Shown: in pieces, positions 21,015 to 24,632 of the stretch
Layout: each line of letters starts with the position of its first letter
Numbering within the stretch: the stretch's first letter is position 1
NCBI RefSeq assembly: GCF_001693735.1
Contig: NZ_LWDV01000008.1
Location: 350,357 to 414,356, forward strand
Direction: 5' to 3'
DNA: 64,000 nt
DNA from: Orenia metallireducens
GTDB taxonomy: Bacteria; Bacillota; Halanaerobiia; Halobacteroidales; Halobacteroidaceae
Notes under the pieces: model-generated
Database searches by the model: none
What the model was told of the DNA's origin: nothing
Seen by the model: only the letters and a program-made list of their open reading frames with translations
Made by a program: the position numbers and the translations under genes

Positions 21015-21254
21015 ATGAAGATTCAGATTAAGCGACTAAATGATAAGGCAATTATACCTAAATATCAGCATGGTAGTGTTGAGGATGCTGGAATGGATTT
21101 ACACTCTGTTGAAGCAGGAGTTATCAAAGCAGGAGAGTATAAAATCTTCAAGACTGGAATTGCTATCAGCTTACCTAGTGGATTTATGGGAAAGGTAGCA
21201 CCTAGAAGTGGACTAGCTTTAAAATATGGAATTACAGTTTTAAATGCTGAGGGT
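21015..21254 (+). CDS. dut: dUTPase, exon 1
   Basis: Encodes residues 1-80 of deoxyuridine 5'-triphosphate nucleotidohydrolase, which removes dUTP and makes dUMP. Visible are motif 1 (DAGMDLHS), motif 2 (PRSGLALKYGI) and motif 3 up to VLNAEG. The next codon is a stop if unspliced. The missing half resumes exactly in frame at 22323 ([11 protein letters not shown]), after a group I intron. AGGAGGAG precedes the ATG. Joined exons give 144 residues, the normal size. Confidence 0.92.
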
Positions 21255-22322
21255 TAATATTAAATAATAAATTTTGGGAGTATAAAAAGAAAAATGGAGG
21301 TATTAATATAAATAATTTCAATCCTAATCTCAAACTTTTTAAATAAAAATTAAATGAGTTAGGTACATTTAAGGAAATTGCAAATTATTATGGAGTAGAC
21401 CGACATAACCTCTTATAACTAAGACTTGGAGAGAATACGGTATGTCGGGTATATACTATTGATGAAAATTAGTTTGATAAGATTAATTTACCATAAAAAG
21501 AATATTTTATGGGGTTTATTATGGGAGATGGTTGTATTTATAATAGAAAACAGGGTAACTATCAAAAAATGATAGATATTGTCATTCATAAAAATGATTC
21601 TGAAATATTAGATATGTTTAAAGAAGAAATTAAAACTGAAAAACTTTATTTTATTTCGAAAGATAATATAGCAACACTTCAAATAGTAAGTGATAGGTTA
21701 TGTGATAATTTAATTTCACACAATATTCTGCCTAGAAAAAATAATAATCCTCAACCACCTAAAAATATACCAGACGAATTCAAGAGTCATTTTATCAGAG
21801 CTTTATTTGATAGTGATGGATGTATTTATAAAGGTGGAGATAGATTGTGTGATTACGAATTTCAATTTTGCGGAAGCAAAGAAATTGTTTCTTATTTTCA
21901 AAGTTTTTTAAAAGATTATGATATTAATTTAAAGATATATCAAGACAAAAGAAAAAATAAATACAATAATTCCCATTATTATATTAGGACACAAGTAATA
22001 AGTGATTTGCAACTTATCAGAAAATTAATTTATGATAATTCTCAAGATTTTAAATTAAAAAGAAAAAGAAAACTTTTTGATATTTTTTAGCCCTCATAAA
22101 ATCGCAGAATTAAGCGGGAAAGCCCTGCAATAAGGGTAACCCGAACCGAAGGCTGAATTTAAAAGTACAGTCAGGGGCAGAGCATAGGCGGTGAAACTTA
22201 AAATAAATGAGAATATAATCCGCCCACGAGGCTGCGACTCTTTGAAAAAGAGAAAAGATATGCCGAGCTTACAGGTAACTGTAAGAACTAAAGGATAAAA
22301 AGCCTTTAGGATAACAAAACTG
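21255..22322 (+). other. Group I intron in dut
   Basis: The 1068-nt insert begins after the U of GGU and ends with G, the group I rule. The 5' exon end UGAGGGU can pair with an internal guide GCCCUCA at 22090-22096, with U-G at the splice site (P1). The catalytic core lies in 22097-22322: GCATA (22182-22186) pairs with TATGC (22259-22263) as P7, the latter in an S-like AAAGATATGCCGAG. P9-type hairpins CTTACAG/CTGTAAG and CTAAAGG/CCTTTAG follow. The ORF sits in the P1 loop. Confidence 0.88.
21308..22090 (+). pseudogene. Decaying LAGLIDADG homing endonuclease inside the intron
   Basis: The open part (21509-22090, 193 residues) has two LAGLIDADG-type helices: GFIMGDGCI and RALFDSDGCI. Upstream in the same frame the protein continues recognisably (LGTFKEIANYYGVDRHNL, an HTH-like segment; FDKINLP) but is broken by four stops at 21344, 21416, 21470 and 21494, mostly where Lys, Glu or similar would be expected. 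The position where a start would lie after GGAGGT reads ATA (21308). The enzyme is probably dead or made only as a short form. Its stop codon G is the first base of the intron guide sequence. Confidence 0.75.
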
Positions 22323-22517
22323 ACTATTGATCCAGGGTATCGAGGAGAGATTGGAATTGTCTTGATTAATCATGGAAAGGAAGATTTTAAGGTCAATCAA
22401 GGTGATAGAATAGCCCAATTGATTATAGAGAAGTATGAAAGTGTAGAGTGGGAAGAGGTAGAAGAACTATCTGAGAGCCAACGTGGTGAAGGTGGCTATG
22501 GTCATACAGGAGTTTAA
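22323..22517 (+). CDS. dut: dUTPase, exon 2
   Basis: Encodes the C-terminal 64 residues: [18 protein letters not shown] (motif 3-4), [12 protein letters not shown] (motif 4) and the flexible motif 5 [10 protein letters not shown], which closes over the nucleotide. No start codon or Shine-Dalgarno of its own; expression requires splicing of 21255-22322. The reading frame joins that of exon 1 without gap. Confidence 0.92.
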
Positions 22518-22646: not shown

Positions 22647-22948
22647 ATATTGCGATAGTTTTACTTCAGTGTATAGTGTAAAGTTGATAGTGGATAGTTA
22701 AATTCAAAAGCTCACACCTCACCCCTTAATCCCCTACGAGTAATACAGTTCAATTACTCTTCGTATACAACCAGTCTCTCCTTGACTAATGAGAGGGGAA
22801 ACTGTTTTTCTTCTTTGTTCCCTCTCTCCGGGTCTAGCGACCACTTCGCAATAAAAAACATTTCCTAAGAATAGGAGAGACCGGTTTTGTATGAAGGGTT
22901 GCTAAACCCTGAAAGGCTAGGGTGAGGTATGAAAAGTGTCGCAATATC
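22647..22948. repeat. MITE-like palindromic element, copy 2
   Basis: Begins ATATTGCGATAGTTTTAC and ends AAAAGTGTCGCAATAT; internal CTCACACCTCACCCC pairs with GGGTGAGGT. It is longer than copy 1 because it also holds a TCAGTGTATAGTGTA segment (also in the 60288 and 63204 copies) and a nested hairpin TACGAGTAAT ... ATTACTCTTCGTA (22736-22765) like those at 17.9-18.2 kb. Confidence 0.78.
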
Positions 22949-24317: not shown

Positions 24318-24463
24318 AAGTATTGGTCTTGTTAAGTTAATTTAGAAAATATAATAAATTATCTTGACAAATAGAATAAAATATTAGAAAATATAATAAA
24401 TTACTGGACTTAATAATTTTTAAACTGTTATTTTTTATAAGTGAATATTATGTTAGGATTAAG

Positions 24464-24632
24464 ATTGAGGTGCAGGAATCATGAGTAGTTATGGGGAGCT
24501 AGCCAGCCTTGAACCATAATAAAAGGGGTTACTGCCGAAATCTAGTTTGCTTGGCTAAGCTAATTAGGTTGGGTCTGTACTTAATAGGTACAGAACTGTC
24601 ACTAGTCTTTCTAGTGGGGTGCTATCTTATCG
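24464..24632 (+). promoter_or_regulatory. Lysine riboswitch (L-box)
   Basis: The conserved core segments occur in order: GAGGTGCAGGAATCATGAGTA, TTATGGGGA, GCCGAAAT, GGTTGGGTCTGT, ACAGAACTGTCACTAG and GGGGTGCTATCTTA, which build the five-way junction that binds lysine. A terminator hairpin follows at once. It should switch off the dapB-led transcript when lysine is high. Confidence 0.9.

Follow-up and report, generated by a model that had tools for sequence, protein, structure and literature searches.

A group I intron with a decayed homing endonuclease gene interrupts the single dUTPase gene of Orenia metallireducens

The dUTPase gene (dut) of the salt-loving bacterium Orenia metallireducens is interrupted between the codons for Gly80 and Thr81 by a 1068-base insert with the fold of a group I ribozyme. 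Very probably, the insert is a phage-type (subgroup IA-like) intron in a single chromosomal dut, which splices but has become immobile, its endonuclease gene having decayed. The group I intron that the first-pass annotation had read from the sequence is supported by homology, covariation, conservation in a congener, an empty site in another congener and the lack of a second dut. That annotation included neither the LAGLIDADG frame that fills most of the insert nor the broader occurrence of homing elements at the dut site. Group I introns are uncommon in bacterial chromosomal protein genes, and here the cell's only dUTPase gene would depend on a ribozyme.

The split dut gene and its ribozyme

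In the analysed stretch of 64,000 nucleotides (the window, to which all coordinates refer), dut spans 21015-22517 on the forward strand. Its frame had been described as stopping after residue 80 and resuming 1068 bases on, just before TIDPGYRGE, with no codon lost or gained; the sequence and the separate Pfam matches of the two halves agree with this reading, and exon 2 opens at that motif with the codons ACT ATT GAT CCA GGG. Joined, the exons give a full-length dUTPase that scores 242 bits over positions 5-147 of a dUTPase HMM built from relatives. Motif 3 of dUTPase, which begins exon 2, is the site of the catalytic aspartate. Both halves are open frames, as they would have to be if the enzyme consisted of two separately translated fragments and no splicing took place. 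The first start codon in exon 2, however, is a TTG at 22362 whose use would remove motif 3, and the exact codon continuity and the conserved ribozyme would be left unexplained; we regard such an arrangement as extremely improbable.

Table 1 Features of the split dut gene, its intron and the intron-borne endonuclease frame (window coordinates).
Feature	Position	Strand	Remarks
dut exon 1	21015-21254	+	80 codons, ends ...LNAEG (GAG GGT); PF00692 profile 7-63, E 2.2e-10
P1 5' strand UGAGGGU, in exon	21248-21254	+	7 pairs
Group I intron	21255-22322	+	1068 nt; terminal G; homology, covariation, congener twin
In-frame TAA stop	21255-21257	+	first intron codon, frame of exon 1; unspliced mRNA would give an 80-aa truncated dUTPase
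HTH-LAGLIDADG homing endonuclease frame, P1 loop	21257-22090	+	read-through phrog_4645 E 6.4e-31, residues 29-275
Intact remnant ORF	21509-22090	+	193 aa; PF14528 (LAGLIDADG_3) 3.3e-10; phrog_4645 5.3e-25
Internal guide sequence GCCCUCA (P1 3' strand)	22090-22096	+	U.G at splice site; identical in O. metallireducens MSL40
P3	22102-22107/22232-22237	+	pseudoknot partner of P7; 96% of cells paired, 5/6 pairs covary
P4	22115-22118/22140-22143	+	13-intron alignment
P5	22123-22126/22133-22136	+	13-intron alignment
P6 + P6a	22145-22176; P6a 22151-22155/22168-22172	+	P6a 95% paired, 5/5 pairs covary
P7, guanosine-binding helix	22180 + 22182-22186 with 22264 + 22263-22259	+	GCATA/TATGC; A22181 bulged
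P7.1	22188-22191/22220-22223	+	98% of cells paired, covarying
P7.2	22197-22200/22208-22211	+	85% of cells paired, covarying
P8	22238-22243/22247-22252	+	13-intron alignment
P9	22268-22285	+	perfect 7-bp hairpin
P9.1	22288-22309	+	perfect 7-bp hairpin
dut exon 2	22323-22517	+	TIDPGYRGE... to stop, motif 3 onwards; PF00692 E 9.4e-18

The ribozyme core occupies the last 233 bases of the insert and folds well beyond chance expectation, with a z-score of -3.0. The group I borders, the 7-bp P1, the GCATA/TATGC pairing of P7 and the P9 hairpins, all named by the first-pass annotation, are present: U21254 directly precedes the insert and pairs with G22090 at the splice site, G22322 is the last base of the insert, and P7 has an additional outer G-C pair, 22180-22264. 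The guide sequence overlaps the endonuclease stop codon by that codon's last base; the P1 loop is therefore taken up by the endonuclease gene, and a P2 would not fit. Inspection by eye revealed no clear P10 helix. In the alignment of 13 introns described below, P7 is paired throughout (100%), with its outer pair G-C in seven introns and A-U in six, the guanosine-site pair G22182-C22263 invariant, and the bulge at 22181 either A or C. The position of P7.1 and P7.2 between P7 and P3 points to subgroup IA.

In splicing, exon 1 would pair with the guide sequence to form P1, and guanosine would be bound in P7. Cleavage after U21254 and joining of the two exons would then yield a normal dUTPase of 144 residues. 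The TAA at the first intron codon is predicted to end translation of unspliced RNA before it reaches the ribozyme core; stops in frame at the start of introns are a known device (PMC3984707).

The surroundings of dut look chromosomal and not prophage-like. Its neighbours are presumably polysaccharide deacetylases, a VanW-like gene, a PRC-barrel gene, and a lysine riboswitch with dapB. The riboswitch (123 bits, 24457-24632, upstream of dapB) is ordinary. Downstream of dut lies a repeat of about 224 bp (22712-22935) with inverted-repeat arms at 22756-22782 and 22873-22899 and 47 full or partial matches in the genome, which looks like a non-coding mobile repeat.

Homologues of the ribozyme core

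With BLASTN, homologues of the core were recovered from 63 phage records and 23 plasmid records; two of these are near full length, at 68-70% identity. For the analysis of covariation, the P3-P7 part of the core was aligned with 12 phage and plasmid introns (n = 13) under a structure written by hand, containing P3, P4, P5, P6, P6a, P7, P7.1, P7.2 and P8, with P3 crossing P7. Standard pairs fill 88.7% of the cells of this 42-pair structure, and 32 of the 42 pairs show changes on both sides across the 13 introns. Covariation scores 0.68, compared with 0.21 in shuffled data and 0.07-0.17 when the partners are slid by 1-3 bases. P3 was left out when the search model was built.

A search with the Rfam Intron_gpI model, proposed earlier as a check in which the lack of a significant match would count against an intron, gave no support of its own: the insert had no intron match in Rfam at either the gathering or the E<=1 threshold. 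The same search with RF00028 at its curated threshold returned 0 matches in eight loci with homologous introns (L005, L010, L011, L013, L015, L016, L018 and L019), and its negative result on the Orenia intron is therefore uninformative. Rfam misses this whole intron subclass, and housekeeping genes split in this way are probably annotated as broken or missed. A snoZ7 match at 21203 (E 0.63) was dismissed as chance.

The block pattern of P7.1-P3 occurs in 105 stretches in the genomes of 84,980 species and in at least 120 in viral contigs; the core was present in all of the 100 genome loci with the pattern that were tested. Among 81 3'-exon frames at these loci, 29 belong to ribonucleotide reductase (RNR), five to RecA and four to gyrase A, the remainder including terminase, DnaB and DNA polymerase III. 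The sole dut in the set is that of O. metallireducens MSL40. An intron of the Orenia-core family was also seen in a second housekeeping gene, the two cores being sisters (100/99). At about two dozen intron loci, mostly from Bacillaceae (L060, L064, L072, L086, L098, L113, L128, L138 and some 16 further genome loci), the next ORF reads ...YLDYHSIPWSYEDK.FDIGYKLYKPDFF... and has no Pfam match; it is possibly another type of homing endonuclease.

T4 td and nrdB and the SPO1 DNA polymerase gene contain phage IA2-type introns. Introns of this type, whose carriers in our comparison include crAss-like phages, share with the Orenia intron P7.1-P7.2 between P7 and P3, the conserved P7 and J8/7 sequences and an endonuclease as cargo. 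In contrast to them, the Orenia intron lies in a bacterial chromosome with no phage genes seen alongside, and its endonuclease has decayed. The RNR and recA introns of Bacillus-group chromosomes (PMC3984707) belong to the same ribozyme clade, 99/99 among Bacillota introns, and likewise combine a chromosomal housekeeping gene with a phage-like core. The Orenia intron differs from these in its host gene, in the LAGLIDADG gene within its P1 loop and in having one site common to two Orenia species. The c-di-GMP riboswitch-intron of Clostridioides difficile and the IStrons (PMC4227781) are also group I ribozymes of Clostridia; in Orenia no aptamer or transposase was found, and the insert lies within a coding region. 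The 2014 review (PMC3984707) names flagellin, recA and nrdE as hosts, not dut, and our literature search found no paper reporting a group I intron in dut. The intron thus belongs to a known type, while its host gene is one without an earlier group I report that we could find. It gains interest from the comparison of three states within Orenia and from the repeated use of motif 3 as a target of homing.

The endonuclease frame and the Orenia congeners

Read through its stops, the frame in the P1 loop encodes an HTH-LAGLIDADG homing endonuclease. It is broken by four stop codons (TAA 21344, TAA 21416, TAG 21470 and TAA 21494), all within the first 80 codons, and the last 193 codons are free of stops. 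The remnant ORF keeps both LAGLIDADG motifs; the HTH region at the N terminus and the beginning of the first LAGLIDADG helix are missing from it. In intact viral relatives, which run to about 400 codons, helix-turn-helix repeats precede the LAGLIDADG part, and it is this helix-turn-helix part that corresponds to the broken region in Orenia. A search of viral contigs with a three-sequence alignment gave 427 matches, where a single sequence had given none. No relatives closer than about 33-36% were found, and there were no homologues in plasmids. Two other kinds of element were considered and rejected: an intein, since the insert opens with a stop codon and has no Hint domain, and an IStron, given that the insert holds only the LAGLIDADG frame and no IS transposase genes.

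An intact endonuclease gene, as expected of a mobile intron, is absent from the Orenia insert. Mobility could nevertheless persist if the ORF starting at 21509, or readthrough of the stops, yielded an active homing endonuclease; both catalytic LAGLIDADG motifs are preserved, as is the C-terminal domain, and the last 193 codons contain no frameshift. We consider this unlikely. The ORF starts inside the first LAGLIDADG helix, the N-terminal part cut by the four stops is kept in full-length viral relatives, and O. metallireducens MSL40 (below) retains the intron without any endonuclease gene.

Still less probable, to the point of being hard to credit, is that the stops are sense codons (TAA/TAG = Gln) in an intron derived from a recoded phage. 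Reading Gln at these positions gives an uninterrupted frame that matches its family, and an endonuclease relative with an in-frame TGA exists in genome G054. Three of the four stops are TAA, however, and the third and fourth align to Tyr/Phe and Glu/Asp, not Gln, in two phage relatives, so that they look like ordinary nonsense mutations; in MSL40 the gene is simply absent.

A search with a covariance model located a near twin of the intron in one congener, O. metallireducens MSL40, at the same junction of dut (GGT/ACC, the slash marking the insertion site here and below). The MSL40 intron has 286 nt and no endonuclease gene. Over 233 nt the two cores are 97.0% identical, compared with 90.0% and 95.4% DNA identity for exons 1 and 2 and 63-65% for intergenic DNA. 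Four of the seven core differences are unpaired, and the three in helices all keep the pair (C-G to U.G, G.U to A-U and A-U to G.U). In a third Orenia congener dut is uninterrupted (AATGCTGAAGGA/ACAATTGAT). The alignment of dut with relatives, which had been put forward as a check, thus yielded both a shared intron and an empty site. A split dut occurs in two of the 61 genomes searched, the window's own included, both of them Orenia.

The insert might instead be dead and dut a pseudogene, in a cell that has no dUTPase or has another one. The broken endonuclease frame would fit, but other evidence argues against it. No second PF00692 gene and no PF08761 (dUTPase_2) gene was found across the 12 contigs (3.47 Mb) of the complete genome sequence searched; an intact second dut, together with transcripts that keep the insert, was named by the first-pass annotation as evidence against an intron. 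The exon 2 protein is identical in MSL40 despite the DNA differences, the ribozyme substitutions all respect the fold, and dut is kept in 61 of 61 genomes searched. We judge a pseudogene to be very improbable.

The pattern among the congeners is in keeping with a fixed intron that splices and has an endonuclease dying out or already lost. Purifying selection on a ribozyme that has no endonuclease, as read from these substitutions, is the best indirect sign that splicing works and is needed. The MSL40 P1 loop shares its first 14 nt with the beginning of the loop in the window, and the best match of its remainder is the 3' end of the ORF, with 74 of 2000 shuffles scoring as well (p about 0.04); this is suggestive of a deletion remnant of the endonuclease ORF. 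Earlier, the intron would have spread through the action of the homing endonuclease whose gene lies in the P1 loop. With that gene broken in the window and absent in MSL40, the intron is probably immobile and vertically inherited, and it may be kept because dut needs splicing. Its phage-borne homologues make a phage a plausible source. The three Orenia states, with a dying endonuclease, none, or an empty site, provide a natural experiment, on a small scale, on the homing cycle.

Interruptions of viral dut genes

Two viral contigs carry a dut split after the same Gly codon as in Orenia (L292:2287-4188, junction ...ACGGGT/ATAATTGAT; L312:2262-4164, junction ...TGTGGT/ATCGTAGAC). Exon 2 of L312 is matched by dUTPase models and position, and has no Pfam match on its own. 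The insertion site is identical to that in Orenia (after the GGT Gly codon before xID of motif 3, with A as the next base), a phrog_4645 endonuclease likewise lies upstream of the core, and the 3' ends are near-identical (GATAAAAAGC...TAACAAAACTG). In contrast to the broken Orenia frame, the viral HTH-LAGLIDADG frames are intact, with about 400 codons (E about 1e-40). The R1-positive viral cores (86 and 103 bits) belong to another ribozyme subclass, with a P2 hairpin and a different P4-P6.

A third viral dut intron, a group I intron without an endonuclease gene, lies four codons downstream of the Orenia site (L407:2507-3166, TIDA/DYRGE). In six near-identical viral contigs (L382, L383, L387, L388, L389 and L420) motif 3 instead contains an intein (TVD/C ... 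HN/CDYRGE), with Hint and Intein_splicing matches; it too is no more than about five codons from the Orenia site. Of 169 viral dut loci (a redundant set), 151 are uninterrupted; all of the interruptions fall at model columns 77-82 of 141. This clustering of introns and an intein marks motif 3 as a recurrent homing target, in line with the known tendency of both kinds of element to occupy conserved sites (PMC2814812).

In the core tree the Orenia introns fall in a 99/99 clade of mostly Bacillota introns, with L292, L312 and L407 outside. A tree constrained to unite the four same-site introns in one clade is 87 log units worse (p-AU 5e-5), and different ribozymes therefore arrived at the motif 3 site on at least two occasions. 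A single clade of the same-site endonucleases is compatible with the data (p 0.35), the window's protein being a long branch of uncertain placement. Motif 3 might be a hot spot that trapped elements separately, with a dut-directed LAGLIDADG lineage moving across ribozymes by swapping, and between phage and bacterial dut, a scenario that we put forward tentatively and hold to be less likely than its opposite. The viral comparison is a rare case in which site choice can be separated from ribozyme ancestry, and it allows one to ask whether the landing site of an intron is set by its endonuclease or by its ribozyme.

A phage-like contig (contig 11 of G054, with loci L005, L006 and L029) carries an intron whose endonuclease has TGA in frame at Trp-like positions, which suggests recoding of TGA to Trp.
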